From IMG/VR virus record IMGVR_UViG_3300017971_000508, positions 1-37,930 of that record: DNA of 37,930 nt. The stretch is one strand, 5' to 3'. A model generated the notes under the pieces. That model saw only the letters and a program-made list of their open reading frames with translations, was not told where the DNA came from and did not search any database. This document shows positions 13,640 through 31,592 of the stretch, in pieces (positions within the stretch are counted from its first letter, which is position 1; each line of letters starts with the position of its first letter). The DNA comes from a virus. The position numbers and the translations under genes were made by a program.

Positions 13640-13843
13640 TCAGGCCACCTCCTCGTGTCGCGTCGTTGCGCAACTTGCAAGGGCCTTGATGTACCGCGTG
13701 GCCTGGGCTGCGGGCACCGATGGCTTGGACTCGATGCGCGACACCCACTCCCGTCGTCGTCCAGCCGCACGAGCAAGCTGGATCTGGGTAACGGCGAGGA
13801 TGGTTCTTGCTGCCGCGAGTTCGCGTCCTGATGGCTCTTGCAT
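13640..13843 (-). CDS. Small XRE-type repressor/Cro-like regulator
   Basis: 67 residues from ATG 13843. 'RTILAVTQIQLARAAGRRRE' and WVSRIESKPSVPAAQ form a compact helix-turn-helix of the XRE family. It is the first gene of the leftward operon. The promoter's -10 box ends only six bases before the ATG and there is no ribosome binding site, so the mRNA is probably leaderless. It diverges from a second XRE gene (13934), and the pair with its shared palindromes resembles a phage immunity switch. No integrase is present, so true lysogeny is unproven. Confidence 0.72.
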   Translation of the reverse strand: MQEPSGRELAAARTILAVTQIQLARAAGRRREWVSRIESKPSVPAAQATRYIKALASCATTRHEEVA

Positions 13844-13849
13844 GCCAAG

Positions 13850-13879
13850 ACTATCGCACGTTGTTGCGCACGTTGTCAA
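13850..13879 (-). promoter_or_regulatory. Leftward early promoter (sigma-70 type)
   Basis: On the minus strand, TTGACA (13879-13874) is followed after 18 bases by GATAGT (13855-13850). The -35 is perfect and the -10 matches TATAAT at four of six positions. Transcription would start at or within a few bases of the ATG at 13843. The spacer carries a 12-bp-period direct repeat, so a bound regulator would block polymerase. Confidence 0.7.
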
Positions 13880-13912
13880 TACCCGCAACAAGAATAATGT
13901 CACGAACGTGAC
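13856..13912. promoter_or_regulatory. Operator cluster between divergent XRE genes
   Basis: Three symmetric elements are visible: the direct repeat GCACGTTGT at 13856-13864 and 13868-13876; the inverted repeat TTGTTGCG (13861-13868) / CGCAACAA (13884-13891); and the perfect palindrome GTCACG-AA-CGTGAC (13899-13912). They overlap the leftward promoter and lie upstream of the rightward gene. They are likely binding sites for one or both XRE proteins. Confidence 0.6.
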
Positions 13913-13933: not shown

Positions 13934-14311
13934 GTGAGACCCCTAGCGCAGTGGCTGAAGCAGCAGCGACGGACCAAGGGCTGGACCGTGGCCGAACTGG
14001 CGCATTACCTGACCGTGGCGGGCTACGAGACGAAGGAAGGCACCGTGCGCGTCTGGGAGGCACCGTCAGGGCGCGACCCACGGCCAGAGACGTTGGAGGC
14101 GCTGGAACGCATCTTCGGGGCGTCAGCGCCCGTTCAGCGCGCTCCCAGCGAAGAGGCGCTAGACCGGATCGCCCTCGTCCTCGAGCGACTCGCTGCGCTC
14201 GATGAGCTGACCGCGGAGGTAGCGCGCATCGCTGGCGACCTCGAAACGCTCAGGCACGAGGTACGCCGTCACGAGTCCGTCAGCGGGAACCATGAGCACG
14301 GCGCCTCGTGA
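13934..14311 (+). CDS. XRE-family regulator with coiled-coil C-terminus
   Basis: 125 residues, GTG start at 13934. The N-terminus (LAQWLKQQRRTKGWTVAELA ... GTVRVWEAPSGRDPRPET) is an XRE helix-turn-helix followed by the 'LEALERIFG' helix typical of that fold. The C-terminal part (ALDRIALVLERLAALDELTA and on) is a probable leucine-rich coiled coil for dimerisation. Divergent from the regulator at 13640-13843 and therefore a partner in the switch. Its last 153 bp overlap the convergent minus-strand gene 14159-14557. The rightward promoter is not obvious. Confidence 0.75.
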   Translation: MRPLAQWLKQQRRTKGWTVAELAHYLTVAGYETKEGTVRVWEAPSGRDPRPETLEALERIFGASAPVQRAPSEEALDRIALVLERLAALDELTAEVARIAGDLETLRHEVRRHESVSGNHEHGAS

Positions 14312-23030: not shown

Positions 23031-23641
23031 TCAGACCTTGTTCTTGGCCTTCTCGAAGGCGGCGTCTTCGGCTGCTCGCTCTGCGCGGAGACGCGATCCG
23101 ACGCGCTCCTCGGCGAGCAGTTGCAGGCGATGGGTCAGCGACGGCCAGTCAGGAGGCCGTGAGGCGAAGTAGCGGTCGTGGATGGCCCAGACGGCGTCAG
23201 GTGCCATCTTGAGGAACCACGGCTCGCTGATGTCGATGCGCCCGTCTACGAAGTGGGCGAGGGTGTCTGCTTCTTCGCCTTGAGGAAAGGGCGTAGCACC
23301 GACTCGGCGTAGAGCTCGTCGGCCTTGTCTGCGATGGGCAGCAGCGTATCGGTCCAGTCGACCGCGCCGTCGATGGCTGCGCGGACGTCGATGGGCTTGC
23401 CGTCATCATCGAGCGGGTCCCACTTGACGATGCCGTCGAGCAGGAAGATGCGGCCCAGCGTGCCGGCGAGGGCTTCGCTGTCGCCGTTGTTGAAGAGGAC
23501 AGCCTGATATGCCGCAGCCCCGCCCTCGGCAGTGAGCCGAGGACGGAGGTAGGCATGGTCGCCGTCGGAGTGCGGCGTATCGGGACATTCGCAGTCGCCG
23601 ATACGCACCTTGACCGGTTCGGTGGGCAGAAGCCGAGACAT
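23031..23641 (-). CDS. Tail assembly chaperone, -1 frameshift fusion (gpGT type)
   Basis: The first 119 codons are the frame of 23246-23641. At CCCTTTC (23291-23285) a -1 slip leads to an open frame of 84 codons ending TGA at 23031, giving about 203 residues. The extension starts FPQGEEADTLAHFVDGRIDI and goes on to APDAVWAIHDRYFASRPPDW and the charged coil RLRAERAAEDAAFEKAKNKV. The extended protein bridges the tail tube subunit and the tape measure, as in lambda gpGT. The pair of chaperone frames directly precedes the tape measure as expected. Confidence 0.85.
23246..23641 (-). CDS. Tail assembly chaperone, short form (gpG type)
   Basis: 131 residues, ATG 23641. GGGAGA lies about 12 bases upstream, a little far. 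The protein (SRLLPTEPVKVRIGDCECPD ... AAAYQAVLFNNGDSEALAGT ... DKADELYAESVLRPFL) has the length and helical pattern of the unshifted chaperone. It ends TAG at 23246. Expression of both forms from one gene is the common arrangement in long-tailed phages. Confidence 0.85.
   Translation of the reverse strand: MSRLLPTEPVKVRIGDCECPDTPHSDGDHAYLRPRLTAEGGAAAYQAVLFNNGDSEALAGTLGRIFLLDGIVKWDPLDDDGKPIDVRAAIDGAVDWTDTLLPIADKADELYAESVLRPFLKAKKQTPSPTS
23285..23291 (-). promoter_or_regulatory. Slippery heptamer CCCTTTC for -1 frameshifting
   Basis: In the zero frame the codons are C-CCT-TTC, the exact X-XXY-YYZ pattern. After a one-base backward slip the tRNAs would re-pair on CCC and TTT. The -1 frame then stays open to 23031. 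Nothing else in the overlap offers a better heptamer; the nearby AAG-AAG pair would re-pair poorly. Confidence 0.8.
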
Positions 23642-23660
23642 AGTACGAAAGTTCTCCCGC

Positions 23661-23709
23661 TAGGGCTTGACACCGTACACGCTAGGGTGTATGATGGATA
23701 CATCAGATA
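23661..23709 (+). repeat. 49-bp promoter repeat, copy 1
   Basis: Matches 26815-26863 at 48 of 49 positions. The only difference is C instead of T two bases after the -35 box. It includes the whole core promoter and about 14 bp downstream of the -10 box. Such conservation over non-coding bases implies a recent duplication or a strong functional constraint. Confidence 0.9.
23667..23695 (+). promoter_or_regulatory. Strong rightward promoter, copy 1
   Basis: TTGACA (23667-23672), 17-base spacer, TATGAT (23690-23695): near-ideal sigma-70/SigA promoter. Expected start about 23702. Two dyads overlap it: TACAC-N6-GTGTA (23676-23691) and TGTAT-N5-ATACA (23688-23702), giving three alternating half-sites where a repressor could bind. 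It drives the gene at 23770. Confidence 0.85.
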
Positions 23710-23769
23710 CGGAAAGGGCACCACCCCGGAAGCCCGCCAATCGCCCGGAAGGGCAGAAAGGAGGTCCTG

Positions 23770-23946
23770 ATGCAGGACTTCACCAACACCCCCCACGGCC
23801 TCCTCGAGGTCGGGACCGAGACTCCTCTCGGAACCATCGAGCGGGTGAGCTTCACGGCTTACCTGATCGAGGGGACCTGGGTCCCCTTCGAGAAGGTCCA
23901 CGGGCCTTACAAGCCCGTCGAGCGGCTCGTCACCCTTATCGGGTAA
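23770..23946 (+). CDS. Orphan plus-strand protein (moron 1), 58 residues
   Basis: Complete single-gene cassette: promoter, AAAGGAGGT four bases before ATG 23770, 58 codons and a terminator. The protein (QDFTNTPHGLLEVGTETPLG, then RVSFTAYLIEGTWVPFEKVH) is rich in short strands and has no membrane span or cysteine. It is transcribed against the surrounding late operon between the major tail protein and the chaperones. No family recognised. Position and autonomous control fit a phage moron, perhaps acting on host defence or superinfection. Confidence 0.75.
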   Translation: MQDFTNTPHGLLEVGTETPLGTIERVSFTAYLIEGTWVPFEKVHGPYKPVERLVTLIG

Positions 23947-23952
23947 GCCGCC

Positions 23953-23985
23953 AGAGCCCCGCCGAACAGCGGGGCTCTTCTTCTG
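23953..23985 (+). terminator. Terminator of moron cassette 1
   Basis: Perfect 10-bp stem AGAGCCCCGC / GCGGGGCTCT around the loop CGAACA (23963-23968), followed by TCTTCTGTC. It starts six bases after the cassette's TAA. On the minus strand the hairpin follows the major tail protein stop but lacks a U-tract, so late transcription may pass through partly. Confidence 0.85.
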
Positions 23986-23986
23986 T

Positions 23987-25021
23987 CTAGGGAAGAGCGT
24001 CGAGGGTGTTGACCACGGTGCCCTTGTAGGCGAAGCCGAGGCCACCGTCGTAGCGACCGGTCAGCTCGAGCGTGACGACCGTATTGCCGCCCTGTTCGCC
24101 GTCGCTGCGGGTACGCCAGGTACCGCTGAAGTCCTGCGTCCACTTGTACGGGTTGCCGGACTCCGCGTTCTGCGTCGAGGTCGTCTCGACTCGGAGGTAG
24201 CGGTTGACCGGGTCGGCGCTGAGCCAGTCGGCCACCTCGCTGTCAAGGGCACCGACGATGTCGTCGCTCTTGGCGAAGGTGAACGATGCGGAGATGGTGC
24301 GCCCAGCGAGGCCGTAGCCGTCCACGCCGAAGCGGGAGTTCGAGCCATTCGCGAAGCGCTTGACGTCGATCTCGTTCTCGATGGTGATGGTAGCCGCGTG
24401 CAGAGCGTCGCTGATCTGCGTGCTGCCGATGCCGCCTGAGGTGTCGTCGATGTATAGCACCGTATCGGCACCGAAGACGAGCGGGAGGTTGGACGAGACG
24501 GACAGACCAGCCGTCGGCGTGACGCCGTGGTCCACCGAGCCGAAGCGCCAGGTGGTGCTGACGGTCCACGGGCCGAGCTCCGGGTCGAAGCTGAACTTCA
24601 TGCTCTCGACGACGCCGTCGATGGCTTCCATGCCGTCGGTATCGACGTCATCTGCCCAGTCGGCGGTGAAGTAGTCGAGCGTGGTCGCGGTCGTGCTGAC
24701 GCTCTGGAACGTCCACGTATAGCCGCCACCACCGATGGCCGAGGCGGACTGGCCGCCACGCAGGCCCGCAGCATAGAGCAGCGGGAGATGGTGGAAGTCC
24801 AGCGTCGCGGTCAGCGGCGCGGTGATGTCGGTGGCAGTGCGGAAGGGATCGAGCGTGGGGTCGATGGACCCGGTGTCGACGTCTTCCTGGTCCTGCCAGT
24901 TGGGGTTGATGTCGAGGACTCCGCGGAAGGGCACCCGGCGAGTCGCAGCCACACCCGTACCGAGTGCTGACTGCTTTCCGAACTGCCACTTGCGGAACCT
25001 GCTGAAGCCCTTGATTGGCAC
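23987..25021 (-). CDS. Major tail protein
   Basis: 344 residues, GTG 25021 with AGGAG five bases upstream. Sequence features of the tube subunit include the N-terminal RKWQFGKQSALGTGVAATRR, LRGVLD-type strands, TATLDFHHLPLLYAAGLRGG, and a C-terminal 'VTLELTGRYDGGLGFAY'. Its place between the neck genes and the chaperone/tape measure genes is the canonical one for long-tailed phages. It polymerises into the tail tube. Confidence 0.87.
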   Translation of the reverse strand: MPIKGFSRFRKWQFGKQSALGTGVAATRRVPFRGVLDINPNWQDQEDVDTGSIDPTLDPFRTATDITAPLTATLDFHHLPLLYAAGLRGGQSASAIGGGGYTWTFQSVSTTATTLDYFTADWADDVDTDGMEAIDGVVESMKFSFDPELGPWTVSTTWRFGSVDHGVTPTAGLSVSSNLPLVFGADTVLYIDDTSGGIGSTQISDALHAATITIENEIDVKRFANGSNSRFGVDGYGLAGRTISASFTFAKSDDIVGALDSEVADWLSADPVNRYLRVETTSTQNAESGNPYKWTQDFSGTWRTRSDGEQGGNTVVTLELTGRYDGGLGFAYKGTVVNTLDALP

Positions 25022-25058
25022 TTCGGCTCCTATGCCCTAGCGGGCTTCAGGCGGGGGC

Positions 25059-25469
25059 CTACCGGCCCTCCATGAACACGAACCGGCCAAGCGTCACGGT
25101 GACGGCTGGTCGCGGCACTCCTTGCCCGTCGTCCACGCTGGTCAGGCGTGCGCGGACGGGCTCGACGACGGTGTTCGCACCCATGAGGTGCGGGTTGTCG
25201 CTGACGTAGTCGATGAGCTGGCTCGTCGCGGTGTCGAGCGCAGTCATCTCTTCTTCGTTGTCGAACGATGAGACGGCCATGATGGCGTCGATCTCGGCGT
25301 TCCATTGACGGGTTCCAGCGTCGTGCGTCAGGTCGGTGCGCACGTCACCCACCCAGCCGGCGGGGTACGAACCCACGGCAGCAGGCTGCGCGCTGTGACG
25401 CTCGACGAGCGAGGCGGTGTTGTCGAGCGCGGTCTTCGCGCCCGTTCGCATATCGGCGATGACGGTCAT
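25059..25469 (-). CDS. Tail terminator / neck protein
   Basis: 136 residues, ATG 25469 overlapping the stop of the gene before it (ATGA). Contains SYPAGWVGDVRTDLTHDAGT and FDNEEEMTALDTATSQLIDY, then VEPVRARLTSVDDGQGV and a VTVTLGRF strand. The order connector - gp10-like - this protein - tail tube places it as the tail terminator or a tail-to-head joining protein. Sequence alone is not diagnostic. Confidence 0.68.
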   Translation of the reverse strand: MTVIADMRTGAKTALDNTASLVERHSAQPAAVGSYPAGWVGDVRTDLTHDAGTRQWNAEIDAIMAVSSFDNEEEMTALDTATSQLIDYVSDNPHLMGANTVVEPVRARLTSVDDGQGVPRPAVTVTLGRFVFMEGR

Positions 25470-25945
25470 GCTGCCCTATTCCATGCTTCGATGACGGCTC
25501 GGGACTTGTCGACCTCGGCCAGCGCTTTCTTGGCACCGGGCACGAGATACGGCTTCGGTCGCGTTCCGGGATGGTGGACGATGGTGGCGAAGTTGGTCGC
25601 ACGGGCTCCGCTGCGTAGCGTGCCGCTCAGGCGTCGTGCGCCGCCCCACGCGAGCACCTTACGGCGACGTGGACGGATGGTGTGGGCGCGGGTACCGAAC
25701 TCCACCCAGCCCGCATAGCCGACGTTGCGGCTACCACCAGCGAGGATCTGCACCGACTGGCGGCGCGGGTCTACCGAGGCGACGCGGATGGTACGTCCGA
25801 GATTGCCCGTCTTGCGCGGTACGTCGTCCTTGGCGAACTGCACCGCGAGCTGGCCGAACTCTGTGAGGATGCGGCGGTCGGCTACGCCATCCTCGAGGGC
25901 CTTGAGCCGACGCAGCAGGTCCTTGTCGCCAGTGAGCAGCGGCAT
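25466..25945 (-). CDS. HK97 gp10-like neck protein
   Basis: 159 residues, ATG 25945 overlapping the previous stop (TGATG). 'DDVPRKTGNLGRTIRV' and 'VGYAGWVEFGTRAHTIRPRR' are the recognisable elements of the HK97 gp10 / minor tail family. A basic C-terminal half (KVLAWGGARRLSGTLRSGAR, HHPGTRPKPYLVPGAKKAL) follows the family pattern, including the R-P-K-P-Y-L motif. It forms part of the head-tail joint. Confidence 0.82.
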   Translation of the reverse strand: MPLLTGDKDLLRRLKALEDGVADRRILTEFGQLAVQFAKDDVPRKTGNLGRTIRVASVDPRRQSVQILAGGSRNVGYAGWVEFGTRAHTIRPRRRKVLAWGGARRLSGTLRSGARATNFATIVHHPGTRPKPYLVPGAKKALAEVDKSRAVIEAWNRAA

Positions 25946-26148
25946 CAGCTTGAAACCTTTTCATGTTCGTTCCAGCCACAGAAAGCGCAATCGCGTATCC
26001 CGCTGACTGCATGACAGGCGCATTCACAACGGCTTACATCATGCACGGTCAATACATAGGCCAATGGATACCAGATAGAGGCAAGGCTCCAAAGCCATCG
26101 GGGTACCCATCTACGGGGTACACGAGTCAACACGTAGTCTTCGGCCAT
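25945..26148 (-). CDS. Small cysteine-rich neck-region protein
   Basis: 67 residues, ATG 26148 with TGATG overlap. N-terminal part rich in W/R (RVPRRWVPRWLWSLASIWYP), then RCECACHAVSGIRDCAFCGW, a compact zinc knuckle. The local DNA looks less GC-rich than its neighbours. A small inserted protein in the neck gene block; no function visible. Confidence 0.58.
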   Translation of the reverse strand: MAEDYVLTRVPRRWVPRWLWSLASIWYPLAYVLTVHDVSRCECACHAVSGIRDCAFCGWNEHEKVSS

Positions 26149-26789
26149 CAGACCGAACCGATCTGCTCGCGAAGCGAGTACGCGCGGATAACGCCGGTGA
26201 CTTCGGTGGGAAGCTGCGTGTAGTCGAACACGGTGCCGGTCGCAGGATCGGCCACCGCGCCGGCGAGCACCGCATCGCCGCGCTTGATGAGCCAGGCGGC
26301 CATCGCCTTGACGGCGTGGAGCAGGTCATACGGCAGCGGGTCCCAGCCCCAGTCTCCGAGGATGGTCAGGTCGTTGGTATCGGAGCCGACGGTGCGGCGC
26401 GGCCAGTCGAGGCCACGGTCCCACCAGTCGGGGTTGCCGTAGTACCACTTGCCGCCACGATCCACGGGACGGAGCTGGATGGCGACGTATACGCCGGACT
26501 GTCGCGCATCGGGGATGAGGTCGTATGTCTCGCCCTCGGTCAACGTCGCGCCGTCCCACGTCACCGTGGTGGCGGTGCGCAGATCGGGGATGGCGAAGCC
26601 TGCCCGTCCGTCTGTCGTGAACGTCAGCGTCACCGCGTCGCGCTTGGCGAACTGGCGATGAGCTTCGCGGCTGATGAAGTCCTGGGCGACGAGGACGTTG
26701 GACGAGATGTTGGCGTCGGAGTAGCGGCCCGTCGTCCCCGAGATGTTGGCGAAGGTCCGCACGTCTGCTGCTGTCACGAACTGGTTCAT
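26148..26789 (-). CDS. Head-tail connector / adaptor protein
   Basis: 213 residues, ATG 26789 with AAGGGG five bases upstream. The N-terminal segment FVTAADVRTFANISGTTGRY and the helix ISSNVLVAQDFISREAHRQF match the start of gp6/gp15-type connector proteins, which dock on the portal. A beta-rich middle (LTFTTDGRAGFAIPDLRTAT) and the helix YDLLHAVKAMAAWLIKRGDA complete it. First gene of the neck block. Confidence 0.75.
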   Translation of the reverse strand: MNQFVTAADVRTFANISGTTGRYSDANISSNVLVAQDFISREAHRQFAKRDAVTLTFTTDGRAGFAIPDLRTATTVTWDGATLTEGETYDLIPDARQSGVYVAIQLRPVDRGGKWYYGNPDWWDRGLDWPRRTVGSDTNDLTILGDWGWDPLPYDLLHAVKAMAAWLIKRGDAVLAGAVADPATGTVFDYTQLPTEVTGVIRAYSLREQIGSV

Positions 26790-26814
26790 CAGTACCCCTT
26801 GGGGTTAGTACGAT

Positions 26815-26863
26815 TAGGGCTTGACACTGTACACGCTAGGGTGTATGATGGATACATCAGATA
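26815..26863 (+). repeat. 49-bp promoter repeat, copy 2
   Basis: Second copy of the element at 23661-23709, with one substitution. The copies lie 3,154 bp apart in the same orientation. Homologous recombination between them would delete the chaperone-distal neck and major-tail genes, so both must be maintained by selection. Confidence 0.9.
26821..26849 (+). promoter_or_regulatory. Strong rightward promoter, copy 2
   Basis: TTGACA (26821-26826), 17 bases, TATGAT (26844-26849), with the same nested half-sites TACAC / GTGTAT / ATACA as copy 1. It drives the two plus-strand genes at 26899 and 27138. The two cassettes should therefore respond together to one regulator. Confidence 0.85.
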
Positions 26864-26898
26864 AACGAGACGGGCAAAGCCCGAAGGGAGCAAACGAG

Positions 26899-27138
26899 AT
26901 GACGAAGACCACCATCCGATACCTCATCACTGACGAGAGCATCTGGGATGCCACGGACGGGATGCAGAAGGACCGCGCTTCAGCGGTCGCCGTGGCCGAG
27001 TCGTTGCTGTACGCGGAGAAAGGCGATATCAGCGTCGTGGACGTGAAGGTCGCGCGGGTCCGCTCCACCGGCTACACCGTGGAGTTCATCATCACGGCTT
27101 CCGACTTGGGCGAGGTCTACAGCGAGCCGGTCGCTTGA
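26899..27138 (+). CDS. Orphan plus-strand protein (moron 2a), 79 residues
   Basis: ATG 26899 with GAAGGGAG eight bases upstream. The start agrees with the promoter at 26821; in-frame sequence upstream lies within the promoter. The protein TKTTIRYLITDESIWDATDG ... RASAVAVAESLLYAEKGDIS ... DVKVARVRSTGYTVEFIITA alternates strands and helices and looks like a small alpha/beta domain. No family recognised. It overlaps the next ATG (TGATG), forming a two-gene operon. Confidence 0.75.
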   Translation: MTKTTIRYLITDESIWDATDGMQKDRASAVAVAESLLYAEKGDISVVDVKVARVRSTGYTVEFIITASDLGEVYSEPVA

Positions 27139-27293
27139 TGACCACGCAGCAGGCCGCGACGGCGCTGAACCTTGAGGTCAGCGTCGTCCGCCGTCAGGCC
27201 GGTCGGATCCCGTGGTTCGGAACGAAGCGCGGACGGGACTGGTGGTTCACGAAGAGCCAGGTAGAGCGCTACCGGAACACACGTCAGCGATGA
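27138..27293 (+). CDS. Excisionase/MerR-type HTH mini-protein (moron 2b)
   Basis: 51 residues. ATG 27138 overlaps the previous stop (TGATG). 'TQQAATALNLEVSVVRRQAG', 'RIPWFGTKRGRDWWFTKSQV' and ERYR give the helix-turn-helix plus wing plus helix pattern of excisionase-like (HTH_17) proteins. Without an integrase, a regulatory role is more likely: it may control the twin promoters. Its last 47 bp overlap the convergent glycosyltransferase end (27247). Confidence 0.72.
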   Translation: MTTQQAATALNLEVSVVRRQAGRIPWFGTKRGRDWWFTKSQVERYRNTRQR

Positions 27294-28512
27294 CGCGGGC
27301 AGCGTTGGCCCACGAGAAGTTGTCGCGGACGTGCGCCGGCCCGAGCGCGCCAAGCTCGCGGCGCTTCTTCGGGTGGCTCACGAGGTAGTCGACCTTCTCT
27401 GCGAAGGCATCTTCGTCGGGCCACGCCCACTTGTGGTCGTACTCGTTGTCGTATTCGCTGTGGACGGGTACAACCGCCCCTGCGGGGCCGATGACCTCCG
27501 GTACCGCGGAGTAGTCCATTCCCACCGCAGGCACGCCACACATCAGACTCTCGGCGATGCACAATCCGAAGCCTTCGGCTGACGTCGTGGCGTAGAGGTC
27601 CGATGCTGCATAGAGCGCATTGAGCACCGGGCGGGGAACCGGGCCGAGCTGCGTGAAGATGACCTTCTGGCGCAGGGCCGGCGGGTACTTGCTTACCGAG
27701 TCGGGCAGGTAGCCGCCCTGGTCGAAGATGTTGCAATGGATGACAAGCCGAACCTCGTCATGCGCCTCGAGCACCGGCTGCATCGCGCGGAGCAGCGAGC
27801 CGTAGCGCTTGCGCGGCATGTTGCGATCCGTTCGCAGCACCCACGTATGGCCGGGGTCGCCACCGAAGAACCGGCGACATGCGTCACGGCTCGTGAGGTG
27901 AACCTCGGGTGCGTCCTTCTCGGTACCGCGCGGAACGATGATGGGCTCCGATGGCGACACCGGGTGGAAGCCGTTCGGGTCGACGCCGTGGTACGCCAGC
28001 GGTGGACGCTGGCCGGTCACGCGCTCGATCTGATCCTGCCCGAACACCGACATGGCGATGGGCTTCACCGTCCGCCACAGGTCGCCCCAGAGCGGCGGAA
28101 GGTCGGTGCCCTCGATGGGTACGTAGTGGAACGTCGGGATGCGCGCGAAGGCATCGGTGAACGACGAGATGAGCATCCGCGCAGCAACGAAGTCACCGAG
28201 CAGCACTGCCACGTCGGGCTTCCAGTCGCCCCACTCCTCGCCGCTGGCAAGGTGGGCCGGCGTGGTGCCGTCGATGATGTCGCCGACGACGTCGTTGACA
28301 CCCTTGACGTGCATTCCGGTGCGGCCCATCTCGCTGGCGAACGTCGCCAGGTCGAGCGTGCGGCTACCGAATGGCTCCGGTGGGACGGTGCCGAGGTCGT
28401 TCTGGCTGATGAAGCGAACGTCGACGCCGAGGTTCAGCAGCTCGCGACCGATGTCGGTGGTCACCGAGCCGAAGCCGGTGGCCGCCATGTCGCCGAACCA
28501 CAGCATCCTCAC
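27247..28512 (-). CDS. Glycosyltransferase, GT-B fold (GT4-like)
   Basis: 421 residues from GTG 28512 (GTGA overlap); ATG 28506 is possible. N-terminal Rossmann start 'RMLWFGDMAATGFGSVTTD', acceptor-side glycine-rich turn included. The C-terminal domain has 'LRTDRNMPRKRYGSLLRAM', a VIFTQLGPVPRPVLNALYAA element and EGFGLCIAESLMCGVPAVG (about residues 315-333), the E-x7-E nucleotide-sugar motif of GT4 enzymes. It should transfer a sugar from an NDP/GDP donor. The gene sits between capsid and neck genes with two more glycosyltransferases upstream. Confidence 0.85.
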   Translation of the reverse strand: MRMLWFGDMAATGFGSVTTDIGRELLNLGVDVRFISQNDLGTVPPEPFGSRTLDLATFASEMGRTGMHVKGVNDVVGDIIDGTTPAHLASGEEWGDWKPDVAVLLGDFVAARMLISSFTDAFARIPTFHYVPIEGTDLPPLWGDLWRTVKPIAMSVFGQDQIERVTGQRPPLAYHGVDPNGFHPVSPSEPIIVPRGTEKDAPEVHLTSRDACRRFFGGDPGHTWVLRTDRNMPRKRYGSLLRAMQPVLEAHDEVRLVIHCNIFDQGGYLPDSVSKYPPALRQKVIFTQLGPVPRPVLNALYAASDLYATTSAEGFGLCIAESLMCGVPAVGMDYSAVPEVIGPAGAVVPVHSEYDNEYDHKWAWPDEDAFAEKVDYLVSHPKKRRELGALGPAHVRDNFSWANAARVIADVCSGSALPGSS

Positions 28513-29582
28513 GACAGCATCATCCTGATGGCCTCAGCCTCGCCGTCGAAGTCCACGATCTCTCGGAAGCGGGCCGCGCTGGCGGTGCAGATGCGCTCGT
28601 GGTACTCGTCGTCTTCGCAGAGCCGTCGCAGCAGCGCAGCCAGGTCGGCCTCGGACAGGCCCTCGATGTCAAACGACGTCTCGCCTTCGACCCACAGCGG
28701 GCCGGCGAGCTTGTCGGCGTAGTAGCGGGCGTAGCCCACGACCGGCCTGCCGATGGCGAACCAGTTGTGGATCGTGTGCCCGAAGCCGTCCGACCAATGC
28801 TTCGAGTGCCAGCCGACACGCGCTGCGCGCATCAGGTCAGCGACGTCTGGGACGAACGACACGTCAGCGCCGGCATCGGTGAACTCGTCAGCCTTGGCGC
28901 TTCCGAGGGCACCGTAGACCTTGAAGTCGAACTCGTCGGCGTACTGGCGGGCGAACTTCAGGAAGTCGGGATACGACGGCCCTTCGCCGAAGCAGTTCAC
29001 CCACGACGCGATCTCGCGGCGGTTCGCTGGCGGGTACTCGAAGCGGAAGGTATCGAGGCTGAACTCCTGGTGGTAGACCACCGTGGGGATGCCCCTGTAC
29101 GTCGACACCTTGCCAGCCGCCTCGAGGCCGAGCCCCGGCAGCGTGGACGATGAGAGGATGAACTCAGCGCGGGTCCAGTCCGAGTCCTGGAGGTTGTTGC
29201 CGACCTGGACGCCGAACTTCGCACCGTGCTCCTTGGCGAAGCCGTGTAGCCCGACGTCGTTGTGCGGCAGCGACGAGATGACGTAGTCCCAGTCCATCTC
29301 GCGGGCAGCAGCGAGCGTCACGCCGTGCTGCGTGCGCCACGGGTGGCGTGGGTCCTTGCGAATGTAGATGCCGTTCTTCAGCTCGGCGTCGTCCCACCAG
29401 CCCTCGAGATACTGGCGAGCGACCTTGTCGCCGTGCCACGCCTTCTCGAACTGCCAGATGTCCTCGTCGAACCATTCCATGCCGGCAGGGAAGTAGGTGA
29501 ACCAGCCGAAGCGGTCCTCGAAGAGCATCAGCTCCGACTCGGCGAGGGCGTGGTGGTGGAGGTCGGTAAGCACGCGGGTCAT
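28509..29582 (-). CDS. Glycosyltransferase-like protein, second of three
   Basis: 357 residues; ATG 29582 overlaps the neighbouring stop (ATGA). The N-terminus opens TRVLTDLHHHALAESELMLF. A middle 'VGNNLQDSDWTRAEFILSSS' and a C-terminal element around residues 262-283 (SDGFGHTIHNWFAIGRPVVG) correspond to the donor-binding half of GT-B enzymes. The motif is more diverged than in its neighbour; the conserved acidic residue after the glycine is replaced. Sugar and acceptor unknown. Co-translation suggests it works in the same pathway. Confidence 0.72.
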   Translation of the reverse strand: MTRVLTDLHHHALAESELMLFEDRFGWFTYFPAGMEWFDEDIWQFEKAWHGDKVARQYLEGWWDDAELKNGIYIRKDPRHPWRTQHGVTLAAAREMDWDYVISSLPHNDVGLHGFAKEHGAKFGVQVGNNLQDSDWTRAEFILSSSTLPGLGLEAAGKVSTYRGIPTVVYHQEFSLDTFRFEYPPANRREIASWVNCFGEGPSYPDFLKFARQYADEFDFKVYGALGSAKADEFTDAGADVSFVPDVADLMRAARVGWHSKHWSDGFGHTIHNWFAIGRPVVGYARYYADKLAGPLWVEGETSFDIEGLSEADLAALLRRLCEDDEYHERICTASAARFREIVDFDGEAEAIRMMLS

Positions 29583-30604
29583 CCGAGGAACTCCTTCCAC
29601 GCTGCCCCGACGACGTCCTTGCCGAATGTCTCCTTCGCGCGCTGGCGCGTCCACGCGCTGGCGTCGGCAGCCTCTTCGGTGTCACCGAGCAGTCGGTTCA
29701 GCCGTTCTCTTGCGATGGCCGGGTCATCGGACCAGTCCCAGGCGAACTCGTGCGCCTCGAAGAGATCGCGGACGTAGGGCAGATGCGTCTGTCCGCCGAA
29801 GGCTTCAGGCCCGATGCTGATGACGGGGATGCCGGTCATCGACGCCTCGATGAAGCCGAGCGTATACGACGCCGGGATGGTGCCCGTGTAGAGGTACGCG
29901 CGACAGTGACGGAGCGCGGTCTGCATCGTCTCTAGCGATACCTCACCGAGCCCACCGGGCAACTGCTCCGAGCCCATGCCGCCAGGCATCGTCGGGAGGT
30001 CGCTCGTGGCATCGAGGAAGAAGCGAGCGTTGCAGAAGCCCGCGCGCTCCAGCAGTGACTGCGTGAAGTTGGTGACGTAGTCGACCTCGCCGGTCCAGCC
30101 CGTCCACTCGTCGGGGTCCTTCCAGAACCGGATGAGCGCGTCCTCGCCGATGTAGTTCGGCAGGTTCTGCTCTTTCGGCGAGTAGCGAACGACCTGGAGC
30201 CCGTCGTCGCGGTAGCGCTTCATCCGCGCTTCGTTCTCGTGGCTCGACTGGCCTACCGTGCGCCAGATGACGCGCTTGTCGCGGAGCTTGTCCCAGTTGT
30301 TGACGATCCAGCGCCACTCGACGTGGTGGACGATGACGGTGTCCGCCCATTCCACGATGGCGTCGGGCAGGTCGTCCTTCGCGTTCCAGAGCCGATCAGG
30401 AGCGTCCTCAGTCGCTGGTACCGCCTGGACTGCGTCCCAGACCGTATCGACCTTGTCGATGTCAAGGGCGGGCCTCTTGGGGTCGTGTGGGTGGCGTGGG
30501 TCGATGTAGCCGCCGATGCTTGCCACGGTGTAGCCGAGCTCGGTCAGCAGCTTGAGTTGGTCGTGTTCCTCGATGGAGTGCGCGAGGAGCAGCAGGGCGT
30601 TCAT
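29579..30604 (-). CDS. Glycosyltransferase-like protein, third of three
   Basis: 341 residues, ATG 30604 overlapping the small gene's stop (ATGA). The N-terminus NALLLLAHSIEEHDQLKLLT and the segment 'DTVIVHHVEWRWIVNNWDKL' look like the acceptor domain. 'YTLGFIEASMTGIPVISIG' (about residues 245-263) is the GT-B donor-site region with the catalytic-type glutamate. The C-terminal helix ends GAAWKEFLG. Forms a run of three consecutive glycosyltransferases. Confidence 0.75.
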   Translation of the reverse strand: MNALLLLAHSIEEHDQLKLLTELGYTVASIGGYIDPRHPHDPKRPALDIDKVDTVWDAVQAVPATEDAPDRLWNAKDDLPDAIVEWADTVIVHHVEWRWIVNNWDKLRDKRVIWRTVGQSSHENEARMKRYRDDGLQVVRYSPKEQNLPNYIGEDALIRFWKDPDEWTGWTGEVDYVTNFTQSLLERAGFCNARFFLDATSDLPTMPGGMGSEQLPGGLGEVSLETMQTALRHCRAYLYTGTIPASYTLGFIEASMTGIPVISIGPEAFGGQTHLPYVRDLFEAHEFAWDWSDDPAIARERLNRLLGDTEEAADASAWTRQRAKETFGKDVVGAAWKEFLG

Positions 30605-30774
30605 CGCTCGCCCTCAGCCTTGGCCTTCGCCATTTCGGCGTCTAACGCGTCGACCGCTAGGCGTAGCCTGACTTCGTTGTCAACAGACTGGTCGTCACGC
30701 CACGCCTTGGCCGCCTCCGCTACGCGATAGAGGGCCAGCATGAGCGGCGACTCAAAGATCGCATCGCCAATCAT
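30601..30774 (-). CDS. Small helical protein, 57 residues
   Basis: ATG 30774 overlaps the methyltransferase stop and its own stop overlaps the next ATG. Sequence IGDAIFESPLMLALYRVAEA continues into a charged helix (DNEVRLRLAVDALDAEMAKA). It may be a chaperone or subunit for the surrounding enzymes. Unrecognised. Confidence 0.58.
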   Translation of the reverse strand: MIGDAIFESPLMLALYRVAEAAKAWRDDQSVDNEVRLRLAVDALDAEMAKAKAEGER

Positions 30775-31466
30775 CGCGTCACCGCCATAAACAGGCCGAT
30801 GCCGGCGTCGTGCTCTTCGGCAGCGGGCCAGGTGGTCACCTCGTGCGTCGCGTGCAGCGTCTCGTAGAGGTCGTTCTCGGTACGGTCGTGATATTCGCCG
30901 ACGATGTACCGCAGGCGGTCCACCGCGGGGTCCTCGAGCAGCGCCCACTCGCCGCCTTCGCAGTCGGTCTTGGTGAACGCCACCTCGGTGATGCCGTAGC
31001 CATCGAGCAGCGTCGAGAGCGTGATCGACTCGACCTCTTCGGTGTGGTACTCGGCTTCGGGGTGCTTGCCTGGCTTGTTGTAGATGTTTCCGATGAAGCG
31101 GTTGTCGTAGAGGTACGGGTCCGCCACGCCTTCGATGTTCTTGAAGCGCGACCATACGCTGGTCGGGCCGTCGAAGTCGCCGATGGCGCGGTGCAGGACG
31201 AGCACGCGGCCCTCGAGGCCGTTGTCCGTGACGTTCTTCTCCAGCATCTCGACGTTGTCCGCCAGCGCTTCGATGGCGAGGACGGTCAGGCTCGGATGGT
31301 CGAGAGCGAGTGGGATGCAGACCGAGCCGATGTGGGCTCCGACGTCCAGCGCCCAGCCGTCGAGCGGCGGCAGCTCATGGAGGTCGTACTCGTCGTGGAT
31401 GGCGGTGCTGTTGATGACCGAGAGGTCGGATGAGTCCTCGCGGTAGTTCCAGCGGATGTCAGGCAT
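30771..31466 (-). CDS. FkbM-family methyltransferase
   Basis: 231 residues. ATG 31466 is chosen; in-frame extension to 31571 lacks a ribosome binding site. Residues 41-48 DVGAHIGS are the SAM-binding glycine loop, E66 (VLAIEAL) is the ribose-binding acid, and K165-x-D167-x-E169-G-G-E172 (KTDCEGGEW) is the signature motif of FkbM enzymes (K-x-D-x-E-G-x-E). These O-methylate sugars in exopolysaccharides and antibiotics. Adjacent to three glycosyltransferases, it probably methylates the glycan they build. Confidence 0.88.
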   Translation of the reverse strand: MPDIRWNYREDSSDLSVINSTAIHDEYDLHELPPLDGWALDVGAHIGSVCIPLALDHPSLTVLAIEALADNVEMLEKNVTDNGLEGRVLVLHRAIGDFDGPTSVWSRFKNIEGVADPYLYDNRFIGNIYNKPGKHPEAEYHTEEVESITLSTLLDGYGITEVAFTKTDCEGGEWALLEDPAVDRLRYIVGEYHDRTENDLYETLHATHEVTTWPAAEEHDAGIGLFMAVTR

Positions 31467-31544
31467 CGAGGGGGCAGCCTCTTGCGGGTTTGTGTGGCCG
31501 CTTACGGCGGCCAGTCGGTCCATCGTATCGCACATGGACAAGCG

Positions 31545-31570
31545 TGCCGGAGTTCTGCCCCACTCCGGCA
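31545..31570 (-). terminator. Stem-loop after the capsid gene
   Basis: TGCCGGAGT and ACTCCGGCA form a perfect 9-bp stem around an eight-base loop, 23 bp beyond the capsid stop. On the minus strand the next bases are CACGCTTGTCC, which lack a U-tract. It is more likely an attenuator or mRNA-stabilising hairpin that keeps capsid mRNA abundant relative to the glycan genes than a full terminator. Confidence 0.6.
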
Positions 31571-31592
31571 AGCGGGGCGTGGCGTCGTGCGC

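Follow-up and report, generated by a model that had tools for sequence, protein, structure and literature searches.

Two insertions sharing a promoter/operator in a viral late operon probably work like an acr-aca operon with a small HTH_17 protein

The window analysed here, a 37,930-base uncultivated virus record, raises the question of why two nearly identical promoters point rightward inside a leftward operon of late genes. The two copies of this 49-bp repeat, located at 23661-23709 and 26815-26863 on the plus strand, are 98% identical (48/49). In copy 1, the -35 hexamer TTGACA (23667-23672) and the -10 hexamer TATGAT (23690-23695) precede a predicted start at about 23702; the corresponding positions in copy 2 are 26821-26826, 26844-26849 and about 26856. 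The window contains exactly two TTGACA-N17-TATGAT elements, against 0.01 expected even with one mismatch, and no further such promoter was found in the window when two mismatches were allowed. The repeats are sigma70-type promoters and not a product of chance, which bears out the two rightward elements described in an earlier note on this DNA. The 49-bp element is predicted to drive transcription.

Copy 1 lies upstream of orf58 (23770-23946, +), which encodes a 58-aa protein with a pI of ~5.1. As had been noticed before, this first cassette has its own strong ribosome site, AGGAGG, and its own intrinsic terminator (23953-23978, +), a 10-bp hairpin followed by a T-rich tail. It has no HTH gene of its own. 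The earlier note had paired the two elements with 23770-23946 and 26899-27293; the promoters are indeed upstream of these regions, but the second region consists of two genes, orf79 (26899-27138, +), encoding a 79-aa protein with a pI of ~4.5, and orf51 (27138-27293, +), the start of which overlaps the orf79 stop by 1 nt (TGATG). No intrinsic terminator was found 3' of cassette 2. The earlier impression that the 58- and 79-residue proteins resemble no family held in all the searches: neither had a match in Pfam, PHROGs, NCBIfam, PADLOC or PDB sequences. Structure prediction, a check proposed at the same time, gave weak models for both (pLDDT 67.6 for orf58, which is beta-rich, and 62.1 for orf79), and no fold match was found for the orf58 model. 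Direct searches of viral contigs returned no match for orf79, for which no relative was found, and nothing for orf58 at the first attempt; a relative of orf58 was found in locus L065, with 66% identity over 50 residues, in an operon containing an HTH_17 gene.

The product of orf51 is a 51-aa HTH_17 (MerR/excisionase-like) DNA-binding protein and the candidate repressor of both promoters. It matches Pfam PF12728 (HTH_17) with 28.9 bits (cut-off 27; 1.4e-6) and is the most divergent HTH within the close family; a tblastn search of 50,697 public phage records gave no relative of it at the thresholds applied. Its best PHROG match is an excisionase (1.4e-4), and its relative in L067 exceeds the cut-off of the NCBI excisionase domain TIGR01764 (35.5 bits vs 28.8), as would suit a recombination directionality factor or an architectural protein, with the shared promoter just a mobile part that brings the genes along and no shared regulation. 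That role is very improbable, given that orf51 itself scores 18 bits, under the curated cut-off of 28.8, that the window ORFs scanned include no integrase, and that in ten contigs the HTH follows a palindromic promoter at a fixed short distance and covaries with its operator. Elsewhere in the window lie two divergent weak HTH proteins (13640-13903, -, and 13934-14311, +) that might constitute a genetic switch and lack a copy of the cassette operator.

Comparison with syntenic relatives shows that both cassettes are insertions. Cassette 1 (23642-23986, +) occupies 345 bp between the late genes 23246-23641 and 23987-25021, a junction that is closed in L218, L219 and L220. Cassette 2 (approximately 26790-27280, +, its right edge set where homology to L003 resumes) lies between the connector gene (26148-26789, -) and a glycosyltransferase gene (27247-28512, -). 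In L003, whose capsid and connector proteins are 69% and 62% identical to those of the window, this site is closed, as the stop of the glycosyltransferase gene overlaps the start of the connector gene; it is also closed in the L220 contig (L251). Because the sites are closed in relatives, the accessory status of the cassettes is supported. Exactly at the cassette 2 junction, L219 carries the same promoter type with an HTH_17 gene and another cargo, of 65 aa, and L220 bears its own cassette at a third junction. Together with the closed sites, these loci indicate that cassettes are gained and lost at several junctions between late genes. In L218, the promoter adjoins the connector gene, and then the contig ends.

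The glycosyltransferase gene beside cassette 2 (Pfam Glyco_trans_1_4) belongs to a cluster at 27247-31571 that also includes more likely glycosyltransferases and an FkbM-type methyltransferase (30771-31571). The cluster sits between the capsid and connector genes, has similar proteins in L003, and suggests virion glycan modification. In addition, a 67-aa Cys-containing ORF on the late strand (25945-26148), flanked by the connector gene and the next head gene, has 52% GC vs 65% for the window and looks like a further insertion.

The search for more copies of the 49-mer that the earlier note had proposed did lead to further cassettes, in a relaxed form. The strict promoter, searched directly in viral contigs, found nothing. 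An HTH_17 profile including the window protein was searched against proteins and gave five matches (L063-L067), two of which (L063 and L064) repeat contigs already in the profile, those of L008 and L013, and three of which (L065, L066 and L067) were new. In L067, a homologous promoter, TTGACAATCTCTACGCTAGGGTAGATGATACATACATCA, is followed by a small ORF and then by the HTH gene; in L065, the promoter is directly followed by the orf58 homologue, and the HTH_17 gene lies further down the same operon. When viral contigs were scanned for the promoter alone, the relaxed pattern TTGACANNNTNNACGCTAGNGTNNA returned 16 stretches. Two of these, L225 and L228, are the contigs of L066 and L067, from whose promoters the pattern was derived. 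Searched with the window HTH alone, 10 of the 16 stretches have an HTH_17 gene, on the promoter's strand and 220-597 bp downstream, and no HTH_17 match was found elsewhere in their 135,785 bp. The stretches lacking it are L218, which ends at the promoter, L227, with none within its 883 bp, and four of lower GC (L221, L223, L230 and L231). An earlier TACAC-type scan adds L048, L008 and L013, the last with two promoters, like the window. By the operon criteria applied (same strand, gaps <250 bp, proteins <200 aa, HTH protein <150 aa), orf79 and orf51 form an operon with an HTH_17 match at 1.4e-6.

The cargo genes between promoter and HTH are mutually unrelated, with no detectable similarity, except for orf58 and its homologue in L065. 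Most cassettes oppose their neighbours, often amid head genes (judged to be portal, protease, capsid and connector genes); those of L222, L233, L008 and L013 are codirectional with their neighbours, and antisense placement is therefore not universal. In 8 of the 18 listed promoters, whose loci are not all independent, an ATG coincides exactly with the expected transcription start, 35-36 nt after the -35 hexamer begins. This suggests a leaderless mRNA layout, would otherwise be an odd coincidence, and speaks for functional promoters. Both window cassettes have ordinary leaders, unlike the leaderless members. A second dyad over the start site (TGATG-N4-CATCA) was rejected, as relatives do not keep it; the CAT at the start-site position is kept in relatives and matches the start codon of the leaderless members. 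As far as the open-access literature was searched, the promoter/operator plus HTH_17 cassettes constitute a real, ordered and undescribed family.

The looser promoter TACAC-N6-GTGTA was found in 58 stretches of viral contigs, mostly of lower-GC phages, with other gene types downstream, and that pattern alone is therefore not the family. Several small genes each with their own TACAC-N6-GTGTA promoter were observed in the lower-GC phage contigs L019, L022/L033, L035 and L042, and promoters of this kind precede HicA-like genes in L018, L025, L028, L030, L034 and L060.

The spacer between the -35 and -10 hexamers holds a near-palindrome, TACACGCTAGGGTGTA, which is the same in both window copies (23676-23691 and 26830-26845, both +) and is palindromic except for one mismatched arm pair (G/G). 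It is the candidate operator, and its position would be a natural place for a repressor to block RNA polymerase. Across 11 operators, the arms covary: 87.9% of cells were paired vs 78.9% in shuffles, and the covariation score was 0.297 vs 0.091, with none of 500 shuffles scoring as high. Moreover, the residue at HTH column 14, in the recognition helix, tracks the arm class without exception in the 28 pairwise comparisons among eight lineages, which are few, were collapsed by hand and include the L065 operator shifted by 2 bp. The residues are Ala for CT, Ser for AC, Gly for GG, Asp for GC and Thr for AA, and the fit has P=0.005 corrected over 45 columns (permutations of the column maximum, 0.5%). 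It lends indirect support to an HTH protein that would repress its own promoter. In an alignment made by eye through an Asp-x-x-Thr stretch (D-P-S-T in L008), column 14 corresponds to Lys26 of BldC, one of the two residues for which base contacts in the major groove are reported (PMC5859096). If this operator code is true, orf51 should prefer TACACGCTAGGGTGTA and the L067 protein its own site, with TCTACGCTAGGGTAGA as the comparison operator, and the operator-tracking residue would be a clean case of repressor-operator coevolution.

The same palindrome bears on a possible host regulon, in which a host XRE repressor of Chloroflexota type would bind a TACACG-N4-CGTGTA dyad and gate the phage genes. 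The window site is one base off this dyad, and Chloroflexota genomes commonly have promoters of the same register in which the dyad is perfect, many of them next to a short XRE gene; however, none of 301 Chloroflexota genomes contains the family promoter TNNACGCTAGNGTNNA, no homologue of the short XRE was found in the window, and the phage arms vary with the phage's own HTH_17. A host regulon is hardly credible on these grounds and was dropped. Assignment of a host to the phage failed, and phage records contained no match to the portal or the capsid; the window capsid is 42% identical to a protein in one Chloroflexota genome, and the exonuclease is ~32% identical in actinobacteriophages.

A separate promoter class, TTGACA-N3-TACACG-N4-CGTGTA-N2-AT, was observed in Chloroflexota (Dehalococcoidia and Anaerolineae; L068-L185). 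It precedes mutL, macrodomain, DUF72, DUF2851 and DNA methyltransferase genes (named by eye), a short XRE gene abuts it in about one third of these loci, and the combination suggests an undescribed regulon.

Our preferred reading, with a rough probability of 0.62, is that cassettes 1 and 2 are autorepressed accessory insertions ('morons') that work like an acr-aca operon. After DNA entry, the unrepressed sigma70 promoters would give a burst of orf58, orf79 and orf51. The orf51 protein would bind the palindromes of cassette 2 (in cis) and of cassette 1 (in trans) and would shut both promoters off after the early pulse, which would keep antisense transcripts from colliding with late capsid/tail transcription. 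The comparison of loci revealed that the promoter, its palindromic operator and HTH_17 stay constant while the cargo varies, and that two separate insertions share one operator; repression of both promoters by orf51 is what we infer from this arrangement. Counting against it are the divergence of orf51 within its family, the mismatched arm pair of its operator, the absence of HTH_17 from the domains listed for Aca1-10, the direct repeats bound by BldC, and the codirectional cassettes of some relatives. Co-regulation of the two cassettes, as expected from their shared promoter, is well supported by the identical promoter/operator and by the L065 operon, which joins an orf58 homologue to an HTH_17 gene. 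The least certain step is that the cargo might be early anti-defence or host-takeover proteins. An anti-defence function for orf58 and orf79 would be a guess drawn from the acr-aca-like layout, and no cargo matched any known anti-defence protein in NCBIfam or PADLOC.

The same layout might instead serve lysogeny, with the promoters on in the prophage, the cargo giving host exclusion or fitness, and HTH_17 only tuning the level. The cassettes are inserted against the late genes, each has its own promoter, and cassette 1 also has a terminator. In lysogens, high expression is frequent for moron loci (PMC7067206), and integrase-like genes were seen by eye near the cassette in L226 and L232. However, the operator inside the promoter fits a self-limiting pulse at least as well as steady expression, and no integrase was found among the window ORFs scanned, so that a prophage-state role has no direct support. 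We consider the lysogenic account unlikely. The earlier proposal of a co-regulated set of early or prophage-state genes is partly supported, well in its co-regulation and not directly in its prophage-state part.

For the autorepressed insertions, the cassette layout would offer a logic by which early genes can lie head-on in a late operon and still avoid collision. Sequence alone does not reveal anti-defence genes, which are tiny, and they are located via their neighbours. A promoter and an HTH_17 gene that mark changing cargo across phages would be a new bait for them. We tentatively extend this to a broader picture, which we hold with less conviction than the reading of the two cassettes: uncultivated high-GC phages may carry a new lineage of autorepressed anti-defence cassettes with HTH_17 in place of the known Aca folds, spreading through late-gene junctions, with the promoter/operator as bait for new anti-defence proteins and with separate operator specificities set by one recognition-helix residue.

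Among known systems, the cassettes are closest in layout to acr-aca operons, which have constitutive promoters with a predicted inverted repeat within the core promoter, and in which members of all tested Aca families repress their own promoters (PMC9410906); the same aca also recombines with different acr genes (PMC9765179). Likewise, the window cassettes have a constitutive-type promoter with an inverted repeat, TACACGCTAGGGTGTA, inside the core promoter, its arms covarying in relatives, and across relatives small variable orphan genes are followed in the same operon by a small conserved HTH gene that has recombined with different cargo. They differ in that no cargo is a known anti-CRISPR, that cassette 1 has no HTH and would be controlled in trans, and that HTH_17 is absent from the Pfam families listed for Aca1-10. 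Working like an acr-aca operon is the best reading, and membership in that class is not claimed. Similar to phage morons, both cassettes are extra genes inserted between genes adjacent in relatives and opposing the late genes, each with its own promoter; a terminator was found for cassette 1 and none for cassette 2. Unlike morons, the two have a promoter/operator in common, and an HTH regulator comes with the family. The single-domain BldC-like/HTH_17 regulators (PMC5859096) are also very small MerR-like winged HTH proteins without an effector domain, and the operator-tracking column falls, in the alignment by eye, on a BldC residue that contacts bases; BldC itself recognises direct repeats arranged head to tail, whereas the window site is a palindrome with covarying arms. 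Finally, anti-defence genes of archaeal viruses (PMC11065993) belong to another domain of life and another promoter type, but there too one conserved regulatory sequence precedes many unrelated small viral genes, and a similar promoter-based logic led to their discovery.
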